NCBI GenBank assembly: GCA_905221615.1
Contig: CAJNDT010000003.1
Coordinates: 346,640 to 410,639 of the forward strand
Direction of reading: 5' to 3'
Length of the DNA stretch: 64,000 nucleotides
Source of the DNA: Symbiodinium sp. CCMP2592
Taxonomy: Eukaryota; Sar; Dinophyceae; Suessiales; Symbiodiniaceae
The notes beneath the pieces were generated by a model. It was not told where the DNA came from and ran no database searches. It saw only the letters and a list, made by a program, of their open reading frames with translations. Both the position numbers and the translations under genes were made by a program. Shown one piece after another: positions 10,301-34,800 of this stretch. Each line of letters opens with the position of its first letter. Within the stretch, counting starts at the first letter, position 1.

Positions 10301-13300
10301 GGACTGTCTGTTTCGGTGGTTATTGGAAGTATTGCTAGTATTATCAGTATCCTTGATACCTTCGACCCCGTATTCAGGACCCTGAACCGGCCGCCATAGA
10401 AACACACAGTTTAACGATCAGGGGGCTCAAAAAGTGTGTAATATGTTGGGCTATAGTTAAGAAGGATCACCACAATTCGGTGACTTGTAAGCTTCGAACC
10501 CACTTGCGAAATCCTATGATCCTTTATAGGAAACTCCAGAAAGTTGGAATATGGTTTCATGGTAGGATACCCTATAATTTACCATAGAAGGTTAGGATAA
10601 TCATATTCCAACTTTCTGGCTTTTACCTTAGGTGCCGCTGTCCAGGACCCAACTAAGGCCGAACACACGGCGTTTAGCGCGCTGGCCAGAGATTGCTAGG
10701 AGGAGTTCGGATGGCTCCTTCTTCGGATACTGAGCTCCTCTCTGCAGTTTTTAGGGTTTAGGGTTTAGGGTTTAGGGTTTCAAGGTCTTGGGTGCAAAAG
10801 TCTTCGAAGAGTGGTCCGAATTTGGAACCCTCTCCACTCCCTCCCAGCACCAGCTGAAACCCCCAAACCCTCAACCCGACACCCTAAACCCCTCAACCCT
10901 AAACCCCAAACCCCAAACCCTCAACCCTAAACCCCTAAACCCCTAAACCCTAAACCCCAAGCCCAAAGTTCTTCAAAGCCCAGCGACACCCGCTGCTGCA
11001 GCACCAAGCTGGCCCGGAAAGTATCCCTCCGGTGGATGAGGTTCACTGAGCTGCAGATGCGGGCCAGCATCAGGGCCTCTCTGCAGAGTCTCAGAAGTTT
11101 CAATCAAAGGGGCCTTAGTGATTCTGCAGAGTCTCAGAAGTTTCTATCAAAGGGGTCAGTGATTGGAATCCGGTTTTGGGTAATAGATTAATTCTACGAC
11201 CTTGTTCGGCTTCGATCTTATGTCCCTCTTCCTCTGAAACTCAGGCTTGGGGTGCCTGTTAAGCCATCCGGGGTCTTCACACCAAGGACCCCGTCATTTA
11301 GGCAGTGAACCCCTCGGACCCACAATAACCACAATAACAACAATAGCAGTAATAATAACAATAATAATAATGATAATAATGATAATAATAGTAATTTTAC
11401 AAGTTCAAAATGTCAAAGACTCTCTTCGGCTTATGTTCTACCGAAAACGACAATAGTCCTCCAGGAGAGCCCAGGAAGGCTCTATACGGAGGCTGAGGGC
11501 TTCGAGGTTGTGGTGATTGGAGGCCTCCTGGGCTTCAAAAACTGCTTAACTGGTAGAATTCGGGGGTGACCTATGTACATGGTAGCTGAAAGGTTGCCGA
11601 GGTTCCGAAATTCAGGGCTTAGAGGCTTAGAGTTTGTTTCATGTTGGGAACGGTGCGATTTGCTGTGTTCGGGACTAAGGCCCTTCATAAGGTTAAAGCT
11701 TGGTGTTTTCTGGGATGGGGGGGAAGGGTGGTTTCGGAGGTTTGGGAGGCATGAAAGCTTGAGTTTTCTGGGACGCAGGTTCGGAAGTTTGGTTACAGGT
11801 AGGTGCGCGTAGACATGCCTGCATCTTCTTCCTCCGCCTGAAAAGTCCAGCCGTAAGCCACAGACACACCACGACAACTACTCCTCAGCTGGCCACTTGC
11901 ATACATCTCTTCCTCCGTCAACATGATCCCTTCCCTCGCAGAGATCGAGGGTATCCTCGGAAAAAGGTTTCGCAACGCAAAAGAAAGCAGATACAAGTGC
12001 CATAATTACTCTACCTCAATGATTCAAGATTCAACCCCTAAGTCGGGGTAGTCCTCAACACCTGGGCCGCGCCCTAAACCCCGATCACTGCACCTGCCAC
12101 AAAGATGCCGAAGACTCTACCGTCGCACAAACGTCAAACACATGCGCACACACACACACACACACATGCACCGAGCATAAACATGTTGGGAGCGCACACT
12201 CCTGTTTTGCCACCAGCCACGCCAGTAGGTTCTTGATCATGCGCACTCTAGCACAATGATCTGAGGAGGAACTCAGCAGAGCCTGTACTTAAATGCTTCC
12301 GCTGCAACCGCAGCTAATCAATCCAAATCTCGCAGAGACACCCCAACGGCCTGCACCGTCTGCCACTGCACCCGACTGGGATCGATCCGAAGCAATAAAA
12401 GAACAGAGGGCTCTCCTCCTCAACCGCTTCCAGTCGGAACTGAATCCACCGGGCGGGAAGGGTGGGCCACAAAAGCTACAAGTAAGAAACGGCGATGCTT
12501 TCAGTCGCTGCTCACAACATACAACCCGCTACGAGCCAATCTTTCAAAGATGTCTCTACACATATTTCCATGTTGGGAGCGCACACTCCTGTTTTGCCAC
12601 CAGCCACGCCAGTAGGTTCTTGATCATGCGCACTCTAGCACAATGATCTGAGGAGGAACTCAGCAGAGCCTGTACTTAAATGCTTCCGCTGCAACCGCAG
12701 CTAATCAATCCAAATCTCGCAGAGACACCCCAACGGCCTGCACCGTCTGCCACTGCACCCGACTGGGATCGATCCGAAGCAATAAAAGAACAGAGGGCTC
12801 TCCTCCTCACTTGCCCCACCTGGCTTTAGCCGTCAAGCTATACTGGACGATCTTCAGCAGACGCGGAGCTGGTTTGCAAAATAGCTGCCATATCTCTGGC
12901 CATTGACATTTGCCAGTCACTCAGCTGTAAGTGGCTCACCGTTGCCGCGGCATCTTGCAAATAAATGCGGGCAGTCGACGTACTGGACCAGCGTCCTCGT
13001 AGGAGCGTTTTCTCCATGCTTCCATGAAGCAAGAAGTTCCAAGTGGCCCCACCACGGCGCAAGCTGTAAACTGTGAGAAGTCCCTGAATCTTAAGGACAT
13101 CAATGAGTTCGTAGAACAGCTTTCGGAAGAACCTGTCGCCGCGGCCGAGTAGCTTGTCCGAAGCTCGCAAGTGACGACAAGCTTCACGCAGCCAGAACAC
13201 TGCGCACTGTGACTCCACGACCACAAGCTCGTTTGCTCCAGTGCGCTTGCCAGACTTGCTCTTGCCCAAACAAAGCACAGCTTTGTCACGTAAGAACGTG

Positions 13301-16300
13301 ATATCTTTGCGACACAAGTTGTAAAGCTCTCCCGAGCGCAACATGCAATCAAACCCAATCAGCAAAGCAGCGCCTTCTGGCAGAAAACCCATACGGATAG
13401 CCGCGCCTGCAAAAGCTCCTAGCAACAGCGGCGAAATTGGCAGAACTCTAACGGGAGGTTCCAGACGTTGCCAAACCTTTGCTAATCGCCACGATTGCTT
13501 TAACTTGCCCACGCAAGCTGGCAAAAAGAACTGTAGTCCAGCCAAAGCAAAGTTCACCAATGTTTTGTGCTCTCCTTCTGCATAGGCCGCTTCAACCCAG
13601 CAACAAACTGACTCATCAAAACTATCCCAGGAGAGCTGGCTAGTGTTCATATCCGCCAGAAAAAGCAACACATGAAGAACTGCATTGGCGTAACGAGATT
13701 GAATTTGCTCCGATACCATCTGGGCTTTCAGGCTCTTGCCTTTACGACTTTTCTGCCTATGGTCCTTTTGAGTAGTCGTGAGCGTCCGCCCCATCTTGAT
13801 GGTATATCCGATGGATTTGCGTCGGTGGCCACGTAGCCCACAGCTAAAACGACCCCACTAGCCAACACCAGCGAGTTTAGCTTTTTCAACCCTCGTTTTA
13901 AACGGGAGCTGCTGCTTCGTCCTTTTGCAAGGATGGAGCACACCACTTGATTATCAATCAGGTGCAAGATGCGGCAACGTCCATTCCCAGACTTTCTTAA
14001 ACGCCACTTGAGCCCATTAAGCACCGCCTGCAATTCAAGAACATTTATATGTGCAGGGTGCTTCCAAGAATAGCCATGGACAACTGACCAATCAAACAGT
14101 GAAGAGTTGATCCCGGCTCTAGGCCAAGCCTTTGCACGATAAGGTATACCGACATCCAGCCTAACATCAGACCCGCTCTTTTCTGCCTGTCGGCAAAAAT
14201 GTTGCACAAGTTGTTGGGCTTCCGCAGTGTTTGCACAACCTTCCACAAACCGAGGTTGTAGTAGCCATGAGGGTGGCGCAATCGATTTTTTTTCGAACAA
14301 GGTCGACATGATCACGCTTGTTGGTAATACCGAAAGCAGGCAACAATGAGTGGCATAACATCACGAGTACATGTACGCACTGGGACCTTCCTAGCATCTG
14401 CCCGCCCAGCATGAATTTCGCCTGGTTTGTCATCTTATGCGGCAGCGTCCCCTCAATATATCCCTTGTCAAAGCCCATCAAAACCTCTCGTTCGCACAAA
14501 GACGGCAGTCTTAAGGCTCCATCAGAATTCGCAACCATGTTATGCGCCTCGTAATTTTCCACCGGCACCCTGTAAGCATCCGCCTTCCAGCGATCCACGG
14601 CGGAAGGTGAGGCCTCAGCAAGATATAGAGGTTCCACAGGAGGTTTTGAGCGAGCTTTCGGTTGTGTAAGACAAGGTAGCCACCCGTCCATCGCCCCAGT
14701 CCATTTTCCGTCGGGTTCAAGCCAAGCCTCCACCTGGCCCCGACATAAGGGAAAAATCCATTCATCATAGAATTTGAATCGTTTCATGTTCTCCCCTTTT
14801 TGTAGATCGGGCATCCACGAACACCAAAAACAACGAGGACGATGACACCAAGTGAACCACTTTGCATCAATGAGGATGGGCTTCACCTGCAACGTGGAGT
14901 TGAACCACTCGAAATCCGAGTCTCGGAGACACGCAAGATTCTCAATGAAGAAGTGAACAGGGACAGTGAACCACGACTTCAAAAGGTCAATAACCCGCAT
15001 CAGCTCAGCAAAAAGCTTAGCTTCGCGTGAGTCCGGCCCTTGAGAACCTCGTTGGTAAGGGCAACTTGCTCCCACTAAAACGAGGTCCAGATGATTGCCA
15101 AACGAGCGTTGAAGATGATCAACCAACTTTTCATCCACGTTGGCAATATCACCCAATTCGATGACCCCAGGCCAACGCCTGCGAATCACCCGCTTCTTTT
15201 CACGGTTTGTTTCACAGCTCGCATAGCCTACCACCTGACATGGCAATCGAGTCAACGCCACCATCAACGAGCCTATGTCATTGAAGATAGAAATCGCCAA
15301 CACGCGGGGTCCCACACTATGCTGAACATCCATGGCTCCCGCCGGCTGAAACTGATGCACGTTTCCACAGTTCATTTGCTCCAGCATCCGCCGGCCTTCA
15401 TTGGAAAGCCCAGCTGAAGCACACAAACCACCACCTTGTGTTGATGCATCCGAGCATGTAACCAAACCCGAGAAAGGAGTCCGGAGCGAACCGACAGCAA
15501 GAGGAAGAGCACACAGAGCCCGAAGCAACTCCTGTATCGTGGTTTGATTCAAATAGCGCCGGAACCGGAATTGATCACGAGGCCAACATCCGTCCAAAAT
15601 TGATAGAAGTGGACGTCTGAACTCAAAACACCTCACCAGCCGGCCCAGTGCCATCAGTAATGGTTTCACCCCGACACAGACTTGACTTAACAGCCATACA
15701 CACAGCCATCCCGTCTCCAAGATCTTTTCCGCTGGCGGCCCAATGTAACCCGCAATACCATCAACCTCGGCCCCCATACGAATGACTCTGGGCTCCCGTG
15801 TGTGTGATTTTTCCTCAGAGACCTCAACACCAACATGACTGTAGGCCTGCCTCTGGTTTCGATGTGCGTTCGAACATGTGCCTTGCAATCGCTTCCAAAT
15901 CCTTCTGTCAACAAACTCCGGGCAATCAAAATCATCGAGATAGAACTGAACCCAGCCTCCATCCTTGATTCCAGCGGAACTTGGGATTGGGCGATCTCTT
16001 CTCCATTCTGCCCCCTCGTCGTGGCCTGCACCACCGGGCGGGCTACTGAGGCCCAGTCGCCTATGAAGATGTTGGAAGAGCCCTACAGCATTAACCCAAC
16101 CCATTGGTATCACCGCGGCAGCCACGTACACCTCTTGTTCATTTGGCAATCCCACCAAAGCTCCAGGCACCGGCCATCGAAAAGTCATAAACTTTCGCCA
16201 AACGGGCGGTAGGGCCCACGCGTAGTAAGCTCCTCGTTGATCTTCGCCCGACCAGAGCAACACCTGACTCGGGTGTAGGTGGGCTCCCACCCATGCCGAT

Positions 16301-19300
16301 GCACTGGACAATGTTGCTAAATCGCCTGCCATAAGTCGCTGCAACGCATTGCTTGGAATCATATTCATGATAAGTCGTGTAACCCGCGACTCGCCCTCAG
16401 CAGGTGTACCCTTCTTAGGCACAGCGAAAGCACCATTAAGTAGCAATGAACCTCGAACTCGGAATATTTCGGATTTCGGGATTGGCTTCAGAATGTTTTT
16501 GCGAACCAACAATGGCACAAGTTCCAACCAATCACTCCGGCTGCAGTTCATCGAAGCTTTTGGCAAAGGTTGTGGCCATTTATCTTCCGGCAGCAATGTG
16601 AGGTTGGGATCCAACAACCATTTTGCAACCTCGCCCTCAGCCACATCCGCCGCCTGAAGAGTTCCCGCAACGCCATCGGCAGGCAGTCCCGGCAATAGCT
16701 CCCCCACCTTCAAAGGAAGCGCGTGCAGTACTTCTTCACCCGTGTAATCAACACCTTTGGTCTTAAGCACCGCATCCGGGGTGAGGCCACAATTTTCACA
16801 AAGAGGATCTCTCGAGAAGTACCGGCATAACTCATCCAAATGGGCGTAAGCTTCCGCTTGGCAGACATTACCCGGGAAATCACAAAGAGCAAAACCCGGA
16901 CCACACCAGTCAGAATATTCACCATTGATCGTAACAACCACCAGCAACCTCCACAACTGGAAACAACTGGCCCGCACCAGTTTTCGGGTTTGTTGCTTTC
17001 CTAAATGGTCTAAACTCCGAGGGTCCCACACAAGTAGTCCGGATGATCTCCTCGCCAGTTGCCTGCACAGACGCAACACAGCCCCTAAAGGCGGAATAGG
17101 AAGTGGTAACAAATCCCTGTCCCGCAGAGTTGGCGTGGCTGTATTTTTCACCAGAGCTGACACTCCGGACCAAAGAGCCCCATCTCGTGGGGAAAGCAAC
17201 AGGAGCTGTAGCAGCGTAATGCCCAATTGCAACACACAGCGCTTATCCGGCAAACCTTCACGTAGGAGACCATGGAGCCTTCGATCACAAAGCATATCAC
17301 AACCCTCCAGCATAACACCTTTCAGCTCATCAAAGGCATGCGCCCTCCCGCCCGCCACCCGGCCAACACCGGGCTCTGTACAGGGCACAGGCTGGCAGCC
17401 GCCATTAAAAACCCACGGGCCAACACCCGGATCACTTCCCCCAGGGGCCAACACCCCTAGAGCTCGCCCCTCGCCGTCTTGAACACTCTGTCCTTCCATG
17501 CTCTCTTCGTCTCGTTGGCGATCCTCGGTGTCTGTTTTCGTGCTGCTGAAACTGACATCTTCATGCGGCCTGCCACCGGCTCCGTGGTCACCTCCTCCCG
17601 AAACGTCACCTTCCTCTCCTCCTTCGGCCTGGTGGGGCTCCCCCTCCTCCGAACCAAAGGTGATCTGCTGGGTGACCTCGGTGTATCGGCTGGTGCCTCC
17701 TCCGCCGATGGGGCCTCCTCCTTCGGGTGCCTGGTGTAAAGGGGGTCGCGTTGAGGGAGGCTCGTTGGCTTGAGCGCTCCCCCGCGGACTCCCTAGCCCA
17801 GGAGCTTATCTGCCTTGGCCGTCCTGTGCGCGAGATCCCTCGCAAAGAAAGTCTCCTCGGGGCTTACCCCAACCGAGTCCTCGGGGATGAGCTCCAGGAA
17901 GCGACCGCACTTCTCGGAGTTATCCCGCAAAGCCATAACCTGGGACTTAAACCGTTGCATAAGGATATCGCCTGCCGTGTCCACTTTGCCTTTGAGCAGG
18001 GCATCCATGGTTTGGCACAAAGTCCTCAACTCCCGGTACTTGCTCTCGCCTATGCTCTTCACGGGGTGGGCTGGCAAGACCATCGTCATCAAGTAACGCA
18101 CCATAATTGGGCTCAAAGTCGCCGAACCATCCTCGCCTGAGATCTGCCCCAACTGCTCCTGCATGCTTTGCAACCCCGACAGCAAAAGTTTGCCAGGCTT
18201 TTCCTCAGCAATCCTTCTGAGCTTGCGGCGCCGCTGTTCCCAGCCGCCGCTGCCACCGAAGTCCAGCTCGTCCTCTTCATCCTCGGCTTCCCCCTCACTA
18301 TCATCTGAGGAGGCCTCCTCCTTCGAGCCTCGGCTCCGGCTAGCCTTTACCAAAGCCTTCTGGATGGATCTGGCCACGGAATCTGCCTTTCTGACCTTCT
18401 TCGGCTTGCCCTTCTCAGCAACCTCCATCGCCCGCCCAGCCAACACTGAGCCGGGCTCCTTCCCTTTGACCTCCGCCTTCTTGCCCATGAGCTTCGCCCT
18501 GAGCTCCCCCAACTTCTTCTCAACTTTGTTGTCCTTGCTCTCGCCTCTGGACTCCTCCAAAGTATCGTCGAGCATTGCATCTAAGGCCGTGGGCGGTCGA
18601 TGGCCCCGCGGCAAGGCCTTCTTCCGACGCTTCGTCGCCGGCCGAGGTTCCTCAACCTCCACCTCCTCAGCCTCCCCGCCTTCTTCAAAGTTCTCCGCCT
18701 TAGGAGCTGGGAGGGCCTGAGTAGCCACCTGTCGGGAATCGCGGCGGTCTCCACTTGTGCTCGTGACGGGCTTTCGGGAAGGAATACGCAAAAGGGGCAG
18801 TTTAGGACACCCCCAGGACTCAAGTAGATCGCTTGCTGAATTTCGAGAAATAGGCGCCCACTTCTGAACATGAATCACATCTTTCATGCCAAAATTCTTG
18901 CTACAGCGTGAGGCATGACGACGGCAGAGATGATGGTACGAATCTGCAGGCAACCCACCTGCCTTTCCCTTATTGTCAATGTACCACTGATAATAAGAGC
19001 TGTCCGTCCCGCGATAGGTCAAGTCAACAAACATACCATCGCTGTTCACCTCATACTTCTCGATCACTTCTCCTACTGCAAGGCCCAATCTCTCGAAGCG
19101 ATCCCCTAGGACCTCGAACACCAAATAGTCAAACTCAGCTCCAGCTGCCGACCGGAACTGTAGTTCACCCATCATGGCTCCATCGTTCAGCTCTATGGTA
19201 AGAGCATCGGAGCCACCTCTCTGTCGGCCCTGGCCATCACCACGGGACCGCCGGGACATCAGAAACCCTCACTTCAATGCAGCCACCACCGCATCACCAG

Positions 19301-19794
19301 GGAACTGAAACCCGGGACTCTAAGATCGTCCTGTGATCCACAAAAGCTACAAGTAAGAAACGGCGATGCTTTCAGTCGCTGCTCACAACATACAACCCGC
19401 TACGAGCCAATCTTTCAAAGATGTCTCTACACATATTTCCAAACCCGGAGATCCGATATCAGAGGGCTCAAACCTGTGAACCTCAGTGGCTTAGCACTGA
19501 AACCCCAACAAAGACCACAACAAACTCCTGAACTTACCACCCTGAACTCTGCCCACGTGAAGTCACGATACTTGGGCTTCAGGAACACACCACTTTTTTT
19601 GAGATGAAGACTCCAACGTACGAAAAGAGCGAAAAGGTCTTACTTGTCCAGTATCCGGAGCATCTCAAAGGTTAACCTTTTAGAGCTTGTTGGGGATACA
19701 TAAAGATTAAAGTCCAAAAAACGTTAAAGGTCACGTACCCGACTACTAGGGATGCTGTTGGGGACCTAGATGACGCCATCAGGGGTAGGGTAGG

Positions 19795-22800: not shown

Positions 22801-25800
22801 GCCGATAGAGCGACGAACACGAAGATGCAAAGCAAGGGACGCCGAATCATCAATCAAGACGTACGATCATAAGAACCGCTCTACGAATCAATGTGGTTGA
22901 GAAGATAATGAAGCAACCTCCACCCCAAACCACAAACTCTAGAAGCCCCCAGGCCCTCCACTGCCCTGAACCCTAAACCCTAAACCCTAAACCCTAAACC
23001 TGCTGATAGCCAGCAGGGAGATCATTGAACGGCCCTTGTTCGGTAGGCCCTAAGGCCTCAGGTGCAGGCTCTTCCATGAGTCCTAAAGACACCTATCGAA
23101 TTGAAATCGCACACTGTTTTTTTCCTTGAGCCACGTGTTGTCGAGCGTATTGTACATTGATGCTCACGCACACAGCTTCTGCGACATCGGAAGATCAAAC
23201 TCTCAGCACTCCTCCTCGCGCATTGGGCTTTTAGCCAAGGGGTGCCCCAACAAGCATGAGAGGCTTGTCCCGATCGCAGTAGCGGCACAAACGAAGAGTC
23301 CGAGGAGGGCCTGTGGCATTCCTTTGACCGTGACATCCTGCTATCGTATGTACACAGTCCCCATTAGGAGTAGTAAAGAAGGGCCCCTCGAAGCCCTGGA
23401 GCCGTCTTGCATCTATCCAGTTAGGACCGCGAAACTCTATCTCGGTCTGAACAGCCGTAGATCTCGAAGACACCCTCGTTGATGCAGTCCTGCCCAGATT
23501 GCCTTCAGCTCCTCGTTGCCACCCGGTCGGCGTAGGTGAAAACGTTTCTCTGCTTCCTCTAGGTCCATCTTCTTCAAACTCCCCTCGGCGTCTCCTCATA
23601 CTTGTAGGCGGTGTCATCACGGTAGGAGAAACAGCTTCGGCTTCACGTCTGCGTAGCTCCTCCTGAACTGCGTCACGGGTCCTGCTTCTCAACCTTTCGG
23701 TTCTTTGCAACCTTCGCTGCCTAATACTCCACCATGACCAAACCTTATTCTTGACATACTTCAGGAATTCCCATATTCCCACCGCCGCAATCAGAGAAAC
23801 CACTGCAACGAAGTAGAACTCCATGGATCCATCTAACGGCAAATCTTCTTTCCCTTGGACCCCTTTGACTAGGCACAGACAGATAACCACAAACAACAGC
23901 ATGCCCGACTGATTAGTCGTCCTCAAAGTTCTCAAAGCTGCCTTCGTAGCTCCTTGGATCGTGCCCGGAACAATCTGCCACAAGTCCATCAGCGTCTTGA
24001 ACTTTGGCAGGTCGAAGCCCTTGGTGCCCAAATCGGCCTTTTGCAAGCTTCCACACACATGAGAAATCACCAGCCGCTGTGCCGCAACCTCCTGCCGTAA
24101 AAAGCGGGCTCGTATACGTAGGTGCCGGGTCTTCCACGTGCCCGGCGATTCGCTCGCCAAGCCCTGAGCGGCCGCATTGTCGATCCTCAGGTGCATCACT
24201 GGATCCCAAGACAGTTCCGACAAAAGAGCACTCACTCCCAGTCCCAACTGCACTGCCGCGCACCCTTCGTAGAGCTCCGCCTCTGCAACCGACAATGTGA
24301 TTATTGGTTGCTTAGACGCCCTCCATGACACCGGCATACCACAAACCTGAGCCATTGTCGACCCAAACGAACGTCCTCCTCCCGGGGCGTAACTGGCGTC
24401 CGAGTACACGACCATCATCGGATCATCTTCATTGACCCTGTACCAAATGCCATACTCAACAGAACGTGCTAGGTACTTCAGGATCCTCTTGCTTATCTCA
24501 AGCGCCCTCAGAGGCCTTTTCAAGGCATGCGATGCCATACAGCCCACAGCATGTGCTAGCTCCGGCCTGCTTCGCGTCGATAACCACAAAGCTTCCCCCG
24601 TTGCCTTCTGAGCCAACTTCACTTCAGCTTCTTGGGGTGGTTCCGGTTCTTCGTCGGATTCTCCATCCTGCAGCCACTCTCGGTTGCATGGTACAGTGAG
24701 ACCTAGACCTGGTTCTTCAGGGACTCCATGTTGTCGTAGTAGATCACGTACGTAGCCAGTTTGGGATAGATGCACACCTTCTCCGCAAACCCGCAACTCA
24801 ATACCAAGGAACCTGAGCGACCCATCCTCAGCCCATTCAAGGTCTGAACACTTCCAATCCTTCACCAACCACTGGTAGATCGCCTCAACCAAGGCCTTTT
24901 CTCCCATCATCAAGATGTCGTCTACATACACCAAAACGAGGCCTTGTAGCTGATCCTCCCCTTGATAGGTCGCCTTCCATAGGTTCTCATCGGTAGTCGT
25001 TGCTGTCAGCACCACAACCTTGTCTCCCACATGGATCACCGCATCAACGAACTTACGATTCCTGAAGTCACCCCAAAGTCTCGGAGCCTCTCTTAAACCG
25101 TAAAGCACCCGTGTGATCTGCCATGTTTCTCCCGGGGCTGCAGCTCCGGCTAACACCACAATCGTTGGGGGAACCAGCGCATATAGAAGCTCCCTTGGCA
25201 TTGGCGCCAGCGTAAAAGCATTCGCCACATCGGTGCTGCCGATCCGCCAGCCCATTTTCACCGCGATCGCTATCGCGATGCGTAAAGTGTCGGCTGAAGT
25301 ACCCGACGCGTACACATTCTGTCCCTGCGCCGGCAAAAAGTTGCCGCAAACCACTACCCGGCACTTGCGACGAAACCGGGCAGGTCCTTGAGCTTCTGCT
25401 GGAGGTTTGACAGTGAATACTGCCTTTCCAGGCAACACCGTAAGCCCACATTTCTTCAACTCGCGTGTTTGCTCTGGAGACAGACGCGTCACTGTTCCCG
25501 AGTCCATCAACGCATTGACCTCCTTGAGGATTGCCTCCTTCCATAGGTGGATGTACTTCTTGACTTCCGGCAGGCTAACGTTATGCACTACTTCAAGGTG
25601 ACCATCTAAAGTCTTTAACAGCTCCTCCACTTCAACATCTTTTGCTTCGCCTGGCGAGACCTTCATGACTTTCTTCAATGCGCGAACCCGTTCCATTTCC
25701 AGGTCATGGACGCACTGCTCAAAGTCCCGCTGCATTGCGATGTGGTAGGCGGAAGCTGCACTCTCGTCCGTCTCCTCCTGAAGTTCACAACGTAGAACCC

Positions 25801-28800
25801 TCGCCCGGTACTCTAACTCGTCTTCATCCTCCTCCTCATCGGTGGCTACCTCAGTATCACTGACCCAGTTACTCAACGGCTCATCTTCCACATCATGTAC
25901 TTCAACTCCTGTACCTTCCAGTGGAAACCCACACCTATTGAGAAACGCTGCAGCACTCACGGGGATGGCCTCCGCGTTCAATGGGGTAAAAGCTGCTATG
26001 ATCCATCGACCTTCATCTTCTCCTTGAACATAAGAGTGGAACTTCTTTGGGTCAAACACCGCCACTTTGTTCTTGATATCAACCACTCTTCCTTCAACCA
26101 CGGTGCCATCAGGAAGCTCTTGACTTAAGTCTACACCACCGGTACCATCACCTTCACATACCTCATGAGCGTCTGACAACCACAACCCTTCTGCAGTCCT
26201 CTCGCCCACCTCCATTACGAAGTTTGGCATGCCAGGCTTATTCCGTAGGTCACGATGAGGGGGAATATCAGCTGCCTTAAAGACTCCCAGCGTTGCCCAC
26301 CTTGGCTCATACTTCGTTGTTTCCATCGTCTTTTGTCGCAGCACCATGTTCAAGTACTTGGTGAGCCAGGGTCGCCGGTAGGTGACATCAGTAGCTCCGC
26401 GCATTCCTCCATGAACGTACCCACCAAGCACTAGAGCCGAAGTTTGCGCCCCTCTCGTTTTCCTTTTGGCCTTGCCTCCAAGGTGAACATCTCGTAGCAC
26501 TTCCGCACAGGAATCCCCATCGAACTTGCCCATGTTGTAGTAATGCCTGGCCCTATCTTCTTGCTCCTTAACAAGCGTTCTCATAGTCCAGCCAGAAGGT
26601 ACCGCATCTGGATTCCCTGCCGTAGGCTTCAACATCCTCATCAACGGTGGTGGCTGCTTCCCCGTTAATCGGTGATCTGGTTCAGGTAGGTCAACGACTG
26701 GTACTTCACCCACAGGAATTTCACCAACCCCACCACCATCATCACCGTCACCTTCTTTAGGAGCTGCTAGTAGTGCATGAGGGTCAACAACGTCAGTCTT
26801 CAAGTTCAGGGTCTCCGTTAGTACACCGCTCGCCCGTAGAACAATCGCACCGCCCTTTATGGAGTCCGACAAACCCAAGTAGGTGCCCTCCTCCCACCGG
26901 TCCGTGAGGTCATACTTCTTGTTGTTGCCAAACACTTTTCGTCTGATCATCACTTTGGACCCAAAGGGTAGCAACCTTGGCTTGGATAGTCCAAGTCGCT
27001 CATACATTCGGCGGTTAGCTGCATGTTGCATAGCCAGCGTCCAAAACTTCAAACCCACCTTTGCCTCCGCCATCAACACCTTGGCCATCGTCTTAAACCA
27101 ACGAACTCCTCTCTCAGCTGCGCCATTGGTCTGCGGCACCAAAGCTTCTGAACGGGTGTGGTAGATATCGTGGTCCAACAGCCATTTTCGCAGCCCCTTA
27201 GACGCAAACTCTGAGCCGCGATCAGAATGTAACCTGGCCACCGGTAGTCCAAGCAGTTTCAACCGCAACACAGCTTCTTGTACTGCTAACATTGCATCAC
27301 CTCCTCGCCTGGCACGAACCGGGTACACCATGTAGATCGTATCCATCTCCACTGGCTTCGTCAGGTCACCAATAAGCTTTTCCCACGTTTCTTCATCCTT
27401 CTTGAGCTCCTCCTCATCCTCGGGAACCTCTGCTGTAGAAATCCGAAACATTGTCCTTCCCGTCCACAGCTTCTCTAACACGCGCGATCCCGATTGTGGT
27501 CCATGCCAATCCGACGTCTCCGTGTCCACACCGCCGCTCACATACTTCACCTCCGTCACCCTGGTGTAATCCAGCTTGCTAGGCGGCACCGGACAACCAT
27601 TCCATGACGTAGGCCTGAACAACGACATGCGAGGAGTAACGTGATGCCGAACAAGGACGCCCGTAGATTCTCGAAACTCCCACCAATCATCTGAAACTTC
27701 CTTCTTCTTTGCTGCTTTGGCTGCTGGCGAAACATTACCAACCTGCTCCAGGAGTTCCATAGGACGTTCTCGTTGCACTCGTCGAAGTTCACTTTCCTCT
27801 TCGGGTGAAAGTTGAGGGTCTGGGCCTTCATCAGGAGAGTAATCACACTCCTCCTCATCAACAGTGTTCTTGCCTAACTCCACTTCCCTTGCATCAAGGT
27901 CCCACCCATCCAGCTCATCATCAGGAATGGGTTGGTCTTCTGGAATCAACTTCTGCTTCGGGAACTGGTAAGTGAACACCACTGCATATCTTTCCCCTTT
28001 TACACCTGGTACTCTCACTGGCCCCAAAGTATCCGCACTCAACACATAGCAATCCCTGTGAAGACACTTTCGATGAGGTCGTCCTGTTGCATTGTGTATA
28101 CACTGAAGACAATCTGGACGATATGGTACATGATCATTGGCCAAATGCCTTTCCCACGCCCGTCTGTCCACCGCCTTGAGTGCTCGGACTAGTCTGGGAT
28201 GCCACCCAGGCCTTTGCTTCCACCGTTTAAGTCCCCGCGTCAGCACTCGCACCATCATAGGAGCCCACGAGGACCACGAACCAGCATGACCTTCATCCGC
28301 CCTTGCATCTTGGACACCCTTGAGCTCTGCTACATCCAGGTTGGTTGCCATCGTCGTAGGTCTCCGCATAGGATGTCCTAAACCTCCTTGGTCAAAGTGA
28401 TGAACATCCATGTGCCTTTCGGCAATCCACCTCCGAAACCACTTGAAAACCCACGCCAAAGAGGACTCATCTTGCTCCGACTCAGAAGACGCCCACAATG
28501 AGAAAGCAACGCCATCCAAGGGAACATCCACCTCAGCACACATAGCCGCTCTCCCCGCTGTAGCCACCTCACTAAGTACCACCGCCCTCAGCGTGTGCTC
28601 CAGAGCGTTGTGCCTTGGTAAACCCGACAAGACTGCCGCCACTCTTCCCGTAGCCGCACCCCAAAGTAGTAACTTCATCACGCCGGGGCCCGCCTTAAGG
28701 ATGTCCAACAGAGGAAGCCGCTGTACATCAACATCCAAAACAACCGTTCCGTTGCTCTCCACCGCCTTGAACACCTTGTCCACTGACGAACGACGACCGC

Positions 28801-31800
28801 TGCACATCTTCACCACCCAGTCCTTGCTCATCAGTCGCTTCCGCATCCTCCTGTTGAAGCCCAACATTTGCATGAGCTCCCAGGCCTCCTTCTCACCTGT
28901 GGGAAGATCCGTGATGATCCTTGCCAAGTCCTCGCGCAGCTCTTCCGTTGCCCAGGGCGCAGTCGCCATCGCGCGGAAGCCATCTTCGAACTTTCCCTTG
29001 GCAACATACTCCCGAACGCTCTTTTCCCAGCATGGATCAAGCTCAACCTCACGAGCCCTCAGCATGGCCTGCTTCGTGCTCTCCACGTTCTCCGAAAGTT
29101 GAGCTAACTTCTCCTGCTCAATCTTCGCGATCAACTCAAGCGCCGTTGCTTCGCTTACCTCAGGGCAGCCCGACGAAACCTTCAACGCCAGCTCCTTCCC
29201 ATCGGGCGCTCTCAGAACGCACTTCTTCTTGGTCCACACTAGCTCGTAGCCCAGCACAGCCACCAAGCTTCCAACCGGCAATATAGTTTGCGCTCTAGTA
29301 GTCGCCGGTTCCATAAGCAACGTGCCCGTGTCATTCTGGCGCATCCGCTTCACACCGTCCCCCGCCACCACCACGTCGACTTCGCCTGCAACACCCCATT
29401 CTTCTGAAGATGCCGTCCTCAACGGGTGCGTAGCTCCCGAATCAACCAAAGCCATCTTGCCTTCATAGTCCTTGATCACTTTCTTCAGCATCTTCATAGA
29501 GGGTCCCGGTCTACTGCCCACATGTTGCTCCGTCATCAACTTCAGCACCTGGGTAGCGTTCCGTAGGAAATCATCTACATCCCGAGCTCCCGCCGGAGCT
29601 TCTCCGGTTACTCCAGCCGCCGACGAACCAGCCGTAGAGCTCGAGTCCATTGACGCCCCCGTAGATGCCGAACCCGATGAAGCTGCTCCCGGTCCTCCCG
29701 TAGTCGCCGTAGTCGAAGCTGTAGTCGTAGGAACGGTTCCATCATCGCGCTTTCCGTCAGATCCCTTCCCCAGTGGTCGTAGTCGAGGAGGTTGTCCTCC
29801 CTTGCCTTCATCCCGCCGTGGAGGGTCCCCGGCACCTGCACGAAGCGGGCAGCTCTTTTTCATATGGCCCTTAGCTCCGCAGTTCCTGCATCGTTCATGC
29901 CGTTCTTCACGCGGTATGCTGGCCCATTCGTGCCCAAACTTGCAATTGGCCCTCTGACAACCCGACTCCGAGATGAAGAACTTGCATGGCTTGGTTGTGG
30001 TAGTAGTAGATGAAGACGCCGGAGAGGAAGCACCTTTACCAGGGCTAGCGTTGCCACCATCATTTCCCCCAGTGCCCACAGCTCGCACGGCAGGTGCCGT
30101 ACTGGTAGTGCCCTTAGAGCGCCCCCGGTATGCTATCTGCTCAAACTCGCCAAGCAAATGGGACTGATACTTCATCACAGACGGAAGGCTAGGAGCTGAG
30201 TCCAACTCCAAACCATAGCGCAGCATGTTGGTCCGGAAAGCCACTTCACCGTGCCGTTCCAGCTGAGCCTTTGAAGCTTGGTCCAAACCCCGCAACAGGA
30301 TCGAGGGGTCAGGAACTTGCAACCCCAGGTCCTGTGCCCGCTTTAGCCATCGTGCCCACCTTCGAAGAGCCTCGACGAGCTCCATGGGTGTAGACGCCGA
30401 GCCGGGCTGCTCTAAGGCCTTCAAGACTTGCTGCCTTTCCACAGACGAACCCGGCCTGTAGATCGTCAGTATCCTCGCCAAGATTGAAAGCGTCGTCTGC
30501 AACCTGTTGGCCAAGACCTCGGTGCGTATGGCTTCTGGGATCGATTGCAAGAGCATAGACGCTGCTCTTTTGTCCACCCGCAACCACTTGGCCTCCTTGA
30601 GCGTAGCATTGGCGTAGTCATCCGCCCGTAGCTGCAACTTCTTCACCGCTGACGCATTGACATAGTCCTTGTAGTATGCTTCCAAACACATGAGAACTTG
30701 TGACCACCACATAGCGCTCCCATCCGTAAGATCGCCCATGGGCCCGCTCAGGCCATGCAACCAATCCCCGACGTTGATCGCTGCCATCTCGTCCGCCTCG
30801 CTAAGCTTAGGCAACTCCGAAGCTGTGGTTCCCGGCCTTATCGTCTCTGGTTTGGCCGCATTCATTCCCATCTGCATCGCCATAGCCGCCTGCAACTGCG
30901 TCATCCCTTGCACAAGTGCCTCAAGCGGGCTGCCCGCCCCGCCAATGGAAGGACCAGTCTGATCACCTGGTGCTCCACCTCCTGGAACGCCTTGATGCTC
31001 ACCAGAAAGACCTGGAGGAGGACCACTGTAGATGCCCGGCACATTCTCATAAGGACCACTGTAGATGCCCGGCTTATCACTAAAAACACGACCCCCTTGC
31101 TCGCGACTGTGTCCCGGAAGTCCTGCAAGATTGCCTCCGAAAACACTATCACTCTGAAAACCAGCACTCCGTTCTTTACCCGCAGCACCCTGACTTGTTG
31201 ATGCCGTAGGTCCCGGTCGAACTTCATGCCCCTCCGAGTTCCCGTAGAAACCCGCAAAGCCCAGTAGATTTGACCTTGGTGGACTTTGACTCCTTGCTCT
31301 CCCAACACCCCCTTGCTCACGACTGTGTCCCGGAAGTCCTGAAAGATTGCCTCCGAGCACTCCACGGTTGCTTGAGGACTGATCACCCCAACGACCGTCA
31401 CGCCTCGGAAGTCCTTCAGGATTGCCGCCGGGTACATTAAGAGCTTGAGGTTCAAGAGCATGTTCCCGCGCTTGTCGGCTCTCATGTCCTAAAAGTCCTG
31501 GTGGATTCCCTCGGGATACTCCATGAGTGCTCAAGGCCCGATCACCGCCCTGCCCTCCATCATGTTCCCAAAGTACACCTGGATTGCCCCTAGGATCAGA
31601 AACCCGTTCCACATTCTCGTTTGCACCCCCTTGCTCACGACTGTGTCCAGGAAGTCCTGCAAGATTGCCTTCGAGACGCTGGTTGATATACTCTACCTGC
31701 TCCTGAACATAAACATCGTAGACGAGGTGCTTCATTGGGCCCCGGCATCATTGTCCCGCTTGAGACACCCTGCGCCGCCATAGCCCTCAATCTCTCCACT

Positions 31801-34800
31801 TCAAGCCGAAGGCGCTGGTTCTCTTCACTCACGCTCCTCTGCTCCTCCATCGCCTGTTCGACTTGTCTTCTCACTTCGGTCTCTAACTGCTCCTTGGTAA
31901 ACGACCTCGACGAGTCCGAACCTCCGCCCGACCGCTGCACGGTCCCATACAGCTGAGGAGCTGCCAAAGCCATGTCCCTCAACCTTCTGCTCTGCGAACG
32001 ATCAAACAATGGCTCAGTCTCCGTCCGAGTCCCGTGCCCTGGCGACCACACTGTCTCCTGGACCACTGTCGTCTGCTCGCCTGGCCGCGTCTGCTGCGCG
32101 ACTCGGCGCTGCACGAAGTCGCCCAGCTTAGACAACCACTTCATCGCCGCAGCACCTTGCTGTGCTATCACATTTCCAGAGGTCGTGGATACTTGTTCAT
32201 CTCCATTGATAGACCTTGTAGTAGGTGAAGGCAACGGCGAAGGCCACATAAAACCGAAATCTGATCCAGTAGTGGCCGCTGCCCGGCTTCCTCCTCTAAA
32301 CAACAGTCCATCACTTCTCTCACGACCTCCTTGCTCGCAAGGTCCCACGGCCTCAGGCCTATTGCTGGCCGTCAATACTCCCTCCAGACCACCATGCGTT
32401 CCAGCACTGCTCGCTCCGATGTCAGCATCGCCGCCTTCTCGAAGTCTTCCAGCAACACCAGAAAAACCATGCGTCGTCGGCGTGCCTTGTCCGGTTACGC
32501 CCGTCGCGCCAATTCCGGTAGCCCTTAAGGCTCGATCGTAGTCAGGTTCCGTTGCAGGGATCTCTCTGGCCGCCCGGTCCACGCCGTTTGGCCTGCGATC
32601 ATCGTCTGTGTGAGGTCCGATCACCCGCGCAGTCCCGCCACTTGGGCTCATCACCTGCTGATAGCCAGCAGGGAGATCATTGAACGGCCCTTGTTCGGTA
32701 GGCCCTAAGGCCTCAGGTGCAGGCTCTTCCATGAGTCCTAAAGACACCTATCGAATTGAAATCGCACACTGTTTTTTTTCCTTGAGCCACGTGTTGTCGA
32801 GCGTATTGTACATTGATGCTCACGCACACAGCTTCTGCGACATCGGAAGATCAAACTCTCAGCAAAACCCTAAACCCTAAACCCTAAACCCTAAACCCTA
32901 AACCCTAAACCCCTTAAAGCCTAAACCCCTTAAAGCCTCAACCCTATGCCAACTCCCAGTCGATGCCACCGTAGCTGCTGGAATGGGCTCACGCTAGTGT
33001 TGACCTTGGCCATGGGAGATCAGGCTTTCGGCTCGTCTAGGCTCGACTCCAGGCTTTAGGCTTTAGGAATTCGGATTTAGGCTTTAGGGTTTAGGGGCTA
33101 GGGTTTAGGCTTTAGGAATTCGGGTTTAAGCTTTATAGGGTTTAGGGTTTAGGCTTTAGGAATTAGGGTGTGGGCTTCAGCGTTTGGGGTTTAGGCTTTA
33201 TGGTTTAGGGGTTAGGGGTTAGGGTTTAGGATTCAAGCTTGTTTTGGAAGGGCCCTTCTAGCTGTGCACGGCAGTGGAAGGGGCTGAGGTTGGGTCGGCG
33301 TTAGCTACTCTACCTTCTGATCAGGCCGGCGGACTCAGCACACTTGGAGAGTGTAACGTCTTTAGGGCTTGGGATTTTGGATTTGGGGTTCTGGGTTTGA
33401 GCTTGGGGTTTGTGATAGTAAATCTCCTGAACCTCTGCACCCAAGCCCCACTGAAGCAAAGTGTGGGAGTGATGTGTAAGCAGTGTCATAAGCTACTGCG
33501 TTTCGAGAGTCACCCAGGGGCTGCAGGGTTGGAATCTTGTAGTCTCTGGGCCCCTATGCCCTAAACGACACGATCCCCTAAACCTTGAACCTCAAGGCCT
33601 AAACTCATGTTACTATTACAATTACAATTGCTATTACCGCTACTATTACTGTTACTATGGGGCATCAGTTTGGCGAATCACCAAACCGAACAAGATGCTT
33701 GGTCGGAAGCTCCTTTCAAGGATCGCAGAAAGGCTCCCGGTTCCCATAGGAGTTCCTGCTCCCAAAAGGGTTTACGGTAAGTGCCCCTTTGTTCAAGCAG
33801 CATCGGTAACTCCTCTAAAGTCTAGTCTCTTTCTCACAGGAGTAAACCACAACACAAGACTTTCGTACGGACCCATACAAAAACTCAAACATCATCTGCC
33901 TTCTATTCCACAAAAAAATCGCTCCCATCGACTCCAGGATCACTGAATTCAGGAGTCGTCCTGGAAGAAGGGCCTTTATAACACGGATTCCGATGTAAAT
34001 GACGGTTGCCCGGGTAGGCATTACTCCACCTGCTGAAAAGCGTAGGTATACACCGTATACACCCTAAACCCTGTATAAAATCCAAACGGAGCCCTGAAAA
34101 GACTCGAAAGCTATCCCCAAACCCTGAAACCTAAACATGAATACAAGACGGAACTTTTCGGGGAAGCCCAAACCACGAATGCTCCGCCCCTAATTTTAGA
34201 TTTAGGATTTAAGCTTTGGGATGGGGTTACAAGGTTCCAAGCCAAAATACCATAGATCCTAACCCCAATTCTGGAACCACTCAGATTTCGGCTGATTGGG
34301 GAAACCTTGAACCATAAACCCCACACCAATTTCTAGACCCAAGAGTAACCCAGGCATGAAAAGGATGCCCTTTTTGGTTTAAAGGGGTTTAGAAGGGAAC
34401 CTGAACCCTAAAAAAGGGAATAAGGGCCTACTCTAGGTCCTAGATTTGGGAATGTACTGCTTTGAGGCCGAAGCTGAAACCACCAAGTCGTCCCAAACCT
34501 GTTGGGACGAGCTCTTGGGGTTTTGTGGCTAAGGGCTTACTTGGAGGGTCGGGGGACTTAGTAAGTAGGTGGTAAGTAGACTTATAAGTACCCTAAAAGG
34601 GATCCTAATTGGGGTTATGGTACTTATAAGTCCCTAAAATAACCAGTTACTAAGTCCCCCGACCCTCCAAGTAGGGCTCCATGATTTAGGTGTTTGTCTT
34701 GTTGTTGTGGTTTGTTGGTTTGGGGGAGTAGAGGGATTGGGCATCGTGTAGGTTCCAGGTGCCCGCCGCTTACAAAGCTAGAAGAAGCTTTTGGGGGTAG

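Follow-up and report, generated by a model that had tools for sequence, protein, structure and literature searches.

A DNMT3-type methyltransferase domain, very probably nested within RNase H, in a tyrosine-recombinase retrotransposon of Symbiodinium

We found, in a 64,000-nucleotide stretch of the genome of the dinoflagellate Symbiodinium sp. CCMP2592 (positions 346640-410639 of contig C3; hereafter the window, at its full length), a tyrosine recombinase (YR) retrotransposon with a C5-cytosine DNA methyltransferase (DNMT) domain of the DNMT3 type in its Pol protein, which in all likelihood lies inside the RNase H domain. The four acidic RNase H residues (D, E, D, D) are all present in this copy and are split one plus three around the DNMT, which itself has tyrosine in place of the catalytic cysteine and is probably inactive. 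We consider it likely that the nesting locks the DNMT in, such that the domain, its catalysis lost, is retained as a structural component of RNase H. To a broader claim we would give just short of an even chance: that the captured DNMT3 is an obligatory part of RNase H that cannot be shed, and that in several lineages the Cys was lost while purifying selection kept the domain in the role of a scaffold or regulator, which would make these domains pseudo-methyltransferases within a nuclease. The features of the nested region, including the DNMT landmarks that we take to be motifs I, IV, VI and VIII, are the following:

14167..17805, minus strand: pol open reading frame (ORF), 1212 aa stop to stop, with reverse transcriptase (RT), N-half of RNase H and DNMT
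15469..16443, minus strand: RT core, from the alignment with 120 relatives; YLDDF at 15928-15942
15382..15468, minus strand: RNase H N-half, strands 1-2; catalytic Asp in CSDAST (15439-15456)
14329..15312, minus strand: DNMT3-type C5-methyltransferase domain; best PDB matches are DNMT3 chains
15271-15285, minus strand: DNMT motif I, FNDIG
15052-15066, minus strand: DNMT motif IV, SCPYQ
14935-14946, minus strand: DNMT motif VI, IENL
14824-14844, minus strand: DNMT motif VIII, HRPRCFW
14286..14293, minus strand: A run (T on the plus strand) where the reading frame changes
14360-13728, minus strand: second frame, which carries the remainder of RNase H
14154-14171, minus strand: conserved SDVRLD stretch ahead of RNase H strand 3
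13794..14171, minus strand: RNase H C-half, strand 3 onward, with Glu (HINVLE), Asp (LIDNQV) and Asp (NPSDIPSR)

The split is a property of the family. A protein search with pol recovered 193 relatives (those with a named organism are from Symbiodinium, Effrenium and Prorocentrum), 120 of which enter the alignment and the counts across relatives, gaps excluded. Six relatives have a gap at the first RNase H Asp (D1, of SDAS), and the other 114 all carry it; the Glu (HINxLE) is kept in 87 of 96, the third residue (Asp) in 87 of 95 and the fourth (Asp) in 76 of 84. Taken between alignment columns irrespective of the letter they hold, the distance from D1 to the Glu is measurable in 92 of the 120, with a median of 480 residues and a range of 325-639 in all except P0087, which has 89; RNase H is hence not one contiguous domain in these relatives. 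A search directed to the RNase H of P0087 gave 57 proteins, and in 46 of them both motifs were located by pattern; the spacing is 447-533 in 45 of these and short only in P0087 (89), with P0119 also allowing a second, shorter reading. The whole arrangement is found within one protein in P0001-P0005, and the DNA of loci L040-L042 of the source genome encodes the N-half, the DNMT and the C-half in one frame without a stop. Given the spacing in the relatives and these single-protein and single-frame copies, the split RNase H is common to a large family and is not peculiar to the window copy. Between the window and P0001, the two RNase H halves are the most conserved segments (C-half 92%, N-half 89%; compare RT 87%, DNMT 75% and the linker 67%). 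A DNMT3-type catalytic domain was probably inserted once, long ago, into the loop that joins strands 2 and 3 of the RNase H downstream of the RT; the nesting is drawn from motifs and models, and the single origin is what we infer.

P0087, from Symbiodinium sp. CCMP2456, shares 89% identity with P0026 across 709 residues and skips residues 719-1095 of the latter along with smaller gaps, the gene model thereby joining gag, RT, RNase H and recombinase without a DNMT. If real, it would represent a clean loss of the DNMT insert; it is probably a gene model with predicted introns. As it alone has the short spacing, there is no DNMT-free control for the ancestral RNase H. A search with an RT profile for a relative that lacks the DNMT and has an undivided RNase H yielded 21 proteins, none with the Glu motif, and is thus uninformative.

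Structure predictions favor the two halves belonging together. In the AlphaFold2 model of P0074, a natural relative (pLDDT 84.6, pTM 0.74), strands at residues 107-111 and 115-124 precede the DNMT match (154-483), which is followed by a strand (559-568), a helix (575-590), a strand (600-605), two helices (608-616 and 622-638), a further strand (641-646) and, last, two short helices (655-658, 660-664). This is the general order of strands and helices in RNase H, with the DNMT between strands 2 and 3 of the predicted model. The DNMT part has a DNMT3-like fold by its structural matches in the PDB; such matches fill the list for the full model, hence the lack of an RNase H among its best 50 structural rows says nothing. 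When the window C-half is modelled by itself (pLDDT 71.1; residues 1-25 come from the out-of-frame part), only two strands form; strand 3 is missing and the sheet is incomplete. The structures that match this C-half best are RNase H proteins, and four of the top six rows start at chain residue 27 or 28; Foldseek gave nothing better than E 0.11 for it.

The C-half could instead be a whole RNase H that uses the Asp of the GxDVRLD stretch as D1, with the CSDAST hairpin an unrelated RT connection and the DNMT seated between RT and RNase H. Several observations pull in this direction and away from nesting: that Asp is invariant in 66 aligned proteins and lies 44 residues ahead of the Glu, which is near the ordinary D1-E spacing of RNase H, and among the structural rows of the C-half 3u3g starts at residue 1 (4e19 is numbered otherwise) and those of HIV RT begin ahead of strand 1. 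Because of the 3u3g row we place nesting slightly lower, and this alternative higher, than we otherwise would. GxDVRLD is the sole candidate for a first strand of the C-half's own; in both models, of P0074 and of the C-half, it is of low confidence (pLDDT <50) and forms no strand. Moreover, its Asp is replaced by Ala in P0155 and P0156, both of which keep SDAS, whereas the Asp of CSDAST is unvarying (114/114) and stands in SDAS..GG, which we take to be the classical strand 1-turn-strand 2 pattern of RNase H. A complete C-half RNase H is accordingly improbable, and nesting of the DNMT within RNase H is the reading that we retain.

These results bear out much of a first-pass annotation made from the letters of the window, which had proposed a C5-type rather than Dam-like enzyme nested in the RNase H of a YR element with split direct repeats, with RNase H starting at CSDAST and resuming at HINVLE, LIDNQV and NPSDIPSR in the next frame. 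The residues and the frame change are as it described, a significant C5-methyltransferase match is present, no complete separate RNase H was found in the element, and the structure prediction and the search for further dinoflagellate copies that it suggested gave, respectively, the P0074 arrangement and a large family, including other loci of the source genome, that shares the nesting. Its "full set" of C5-methyltransferase landmarks did not hold, with P-Y-Q in motif IV and FNDIG in motif I. In the profile searches that it also called for, Pfam and NCBIfam assigned neither RT nor RNase H, DNMT or recombinase to any of the four ORFs (a single WWE row is at chance level), and the domain assignment needed profiles built from relatives.

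The Cys of the Pro-Cys pair is the nucleophile of characterised C5 enzymes. In the window copy Tyr stands in its place, and motif I is also changed, from which we conclude that its DNMT is probably inactive. Across 121 rows (the 120 relatives plus the window), the five-position signature made of the motif I Gly, the Pro and Cys, and the Glu and Asn is intact as GPCEN in 85 of the 108 gap-free rows; it reads DPYEN in the window, P0001 and P0002, and DPCEN in P0003 and P0004. The motif IV Cys is kept in 100 of the 110 relatives with a letter there. An RT tree (FastTree, 105 rows, branch support not weighed) unites the window with P0001-P0004 in one group, with other changes of the Cys falling elsewhere in the tree (P0026/P0067/P0071, P0068, P0070 and P0094/P0095). 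As P-Y-Q is common to the window, P0001, P0002 and the sister copy L039, the loss of the Cys predates the window insertion. Continued activity, through the Cys that stands two positions ahead of the Tyr or by another route, is very improbable: SCPYQ does have a Cys at -2, as do SCPCQ relatives (e.g., P0006), but the nucleophile position proper is lost, and motif I is altered as well.

Comparison with L039, which has stops and frame changes, points to selection on the DNMT after this loss. Since both copies read P-Y-Q, the changes that separate them arose after the Cys was lost, and in this one pair the DNMT has 26 synonymous and 16 nonsynonymous changes (dN/dS 0.17; binomial p 1.9e-7 under an assumed neutral share of 0.76), with RT at 0.11, YR at 0.08, gag at 0.13, the RNase H N-half at 0.17 (3 changes) and the C-half at 0.14 (10 changes). 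This suggests purifying selection on the DNMT after catalysis was lost. The N-part of pol (residues 1-450) has a dN/dS of 0.65 in the same pair, and is a relaxed or fast-evolving stretch unlike gag, RT and YR at 0.08-0.13. Among the other loci, the one pair compared for dN/dS is nearly identical, and the others are too diverged at RT.

One comparison weighs against selection having kept the DNMT. Among relatives at an RT identity of 0.75-0.95, the median ratio of DNMT to RT divergence is 1.94 for signature-lost pairs (14) versus 1.21 for intact pairs (62), with mixed pairs at 1.77 (9); by these alignments, the constraint on the DNMT is weakened, yet not gone. The window and L039 both change frame between the DNMT and the C-half, L039 through another, upstream difference, and L039 has stops, and the A and B repeats of the window element differ at only 2 of 350 positions. 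These features would fit a simple decay, in which the Tyr and the changes of frame and of motif I are meaningless damage and the domain looks conserved only as the copy is young. We deem this improbable, given that P-Y-Q is older than the insertion and the changes in the DNMT relative to L039 are not neutral in their proportions. In the window the frame change falls in the A run, and there is none between the DNMT and the C-half in L040-L043. That frame changes occur at 14268-14400 of the window and at 6260-6400 of L039 may be chance or reflect a region prone to such changes.

The main rival to structural retention, which we rate as unlikely, is a selected regulatory or scaffolding role like that of DNMT3L: the animal protein is inactive on its own, and the P-Y-Q DNMT, likewise inactive, might bind DNA or active DNMT3 partners and help to methylate or shield the cDNA. 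The selection seen in the one pair after Cys loss, the DNMT3-like fold of P0074, changes of the Cys in several distinct parts of the RT tree and the absence of Pro-Cys in 9 of 14 other loci are all consistent with such a role; however, the same data fit plain structural retention, and the DNMT is less constrained than in the intact lineages. Structural retention, which we favor, offers a reason for the domain being kept, in that a stop, frameshift or misfold there would deprive RNase H of three of its four catalytic residues.

The source genome (a 1.098-Gb assembly of 5383 contigs; the strain is given as S. tridacnidorum in part of PMC8045281) has at least 124 matches to PF00145 and, at E ≤ 1e-20, at least 39 to pol. 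We read 14 loci with long frames out of 30, setting aside the window, the near-duplicates L011, L012, L035, L037 and L038, and broken or partial matches. The motif IV Pro-Cys is intact in five (L010, L016, L030, L032 and L033), three have a Cys in that column without the preceding Pro (L024, L034 and L036), and six have another residue or a gap (L017, L018, L026, L027, L028 and L031), the alignment of motif IV being uncertain in a distant group of these loci. RNase H D1 is present in 14/14, and the E, D3 and D4 residues in 13/13, as the frame of L034 ends early. L040-L042 retain the motif IV Cys and have Ser for the motif I Gly; with L041 and L042 differing from L040 at only 8 and 15 positions over about 7170 bases, nested elements have moved recently. 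L043, a broken copy 68% identical to the window, retains P-C-Q. On both C267 and C2136 (L034-L037) two elements lie about 20 kb apart, and L034 differs from L036 at a single position in 5502, which indicates a duplicated region or haplotype contigs.

The remaining parts of the window element are these:

12182..19441, minus strand: whole YR retrotransposon, A1-gag-pol-YR-B1-A2-B2, 7.3 kb, from its repeat pairs and ORFs
19333..19441, minus strand: repeat A1; differs from A2 at 2 of 109 positions, the two adjacent
17793..19268, minus strand: gag-like ORF, 491 aa stop to stop, 98-99% identical to the sister copy L039
12838..13857, minus strand: tyrosine recombinase ORF (LRSGEL, SLRRGG, RGRW, ARIY)
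12569..12809, minus strand: repeat B1, identical to B2 (0 of 241 differences)
12462..12570, minus strand: repeat A2, adjoining B1
12182..12422, minus strand: repeat B2

The window insertion is probably young, given that the 241 bases of B1 and B2 match throughout and A1 and A2 differ at 2 of 109. The order of gag, pol, RNase H C-half and YR is kept in 9/9 loci (L039-L047), and both repeats are present in all four of these that were checked. The gag-like ORF has 42% identity to the N-part of P0087 over 206 aligned residues. The YR ORF is 50% identical over 289 aa to a segment of P0091 assigned to Phage_integrase by Pfam, and 40% over 294 aa to P0103; it has a single row against the PDB (E 0.055) and no match among phage records, and a scan of IMG/VR with the family profile found no relative. 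Pfam detected no adenine (N6) methyltransferase on the ORFs, though it also missed the RT and the DNMT there. The CpG observed/expected ratio is 0.79 for the element (12182-19441), 0.93 for its DNMT part and 0.66 for the rest of the window. Neither spliced-leader sequences nor Rfam gave a hint of the host. Elsewhere in the window, the minus strand has at 23231-31747 an open frame of 2838 aa for a Copia-like polyprotein (RVT_2 5.8e-16; rve and zinc knuckles weak), preceded upstream by a frame of 370 aa (31635-32747) and with hydrophobic stretches, by eye, near the C end of the polyprotein; telomere-like TTTAGGG/CCCTAAA runs of at least two exact units occur at 48 places on both strands across the whole window.

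The element belongs with SymbioDIRS-Dnmt3, a class published in 2018 (de Mendoza et al., PMC5890265), and retrotransposon-borne cytosine methyltransferases were, as the first-pass annotation stated, already on record for dinoflagellates. As in the account given in the text of that paper, it has a DNMT3-type DNMT in a Pol ORF with RT in Symbiodinium (here 14167-17805), a separate YR ORF and A-coding-B-A-B repeats; unlike the elements described there, the window copy lacks the catalytic Cys and has P-Y-Q and FNDIG. The same text reports purifying selection on the DNMT, two Pol domain orders, conservation of key DNMT residues and, for the isolated DNMT domains of two copies, methylation of CG in yeast. 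An RNase H split around the DNMT is not stated in its abstract, its sections 6, 7, 10 and 11, or its text on RNase and Pol (figures and supplements lie outside this scope), and no title or abstract brought up by searches of the open-licence literature describes nesting or inactive copies; passages of PMC6338049 do no more than cite the 2018 result. Ngaro elements, as outlined in part of PMC3783388 (Muszewska 2013), share the gag, pol and YR genes and A-pol-B-A-B repeats and, unlike the window element, are without a methyltransferase, whereas DIRS proper differs in its inverted terminal repeats and N6-adenine methyltransferase (PMC3783388). KnitGypsy-Dnmt3 of Klebsormidium also combines a DNMT3 in a retrotransposon Pol with a DIRS-like repeat layout, but has Gypsy-type domains and an independent acquisition according to the text of PMC5890265. 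Animal DNMT3A/3B/3C/DNMT3L share the fold of the inserted domain (as modelled for P0074) but are host enzymes that are not within a nuclease.

We envisage the window element as of the DIRS/Ngaro type, in which RT and RNase H would make the cDNA, as they do in other DIRS-like elements. RNase H would assemble around the DNMT, the N-half supplying the first Asp and the C-half the other three residues, Glu and two Asp. Where relatives have kept the active site, their DNMT presumably methylates CG, plausibly in the new cDNA, and in the window lineage this methylation was probably lost with the Cys. The body of the DNMT would stay since RNase H depends on the two halves around it, a structural need that we infer from selection, and the domain may now be a structural insert that perhaps still binds nucleic acid. 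The recombinase would then integrate the cDNA via the A and B repeats, as is general for this element class.

If this is true, a retrotransposon retains a DNMT over the long term through its seat inside an essential enzyme. The nested DNMT would provide a direct way to ask whether selection acts on methylation, as the text of PMC5890265 proposes, or on the body of the domain. An RNase H active site split by an enzyme of about 330 residues would also bear on domain insertion and on inactive, DNMT3L-like methyltransferases.

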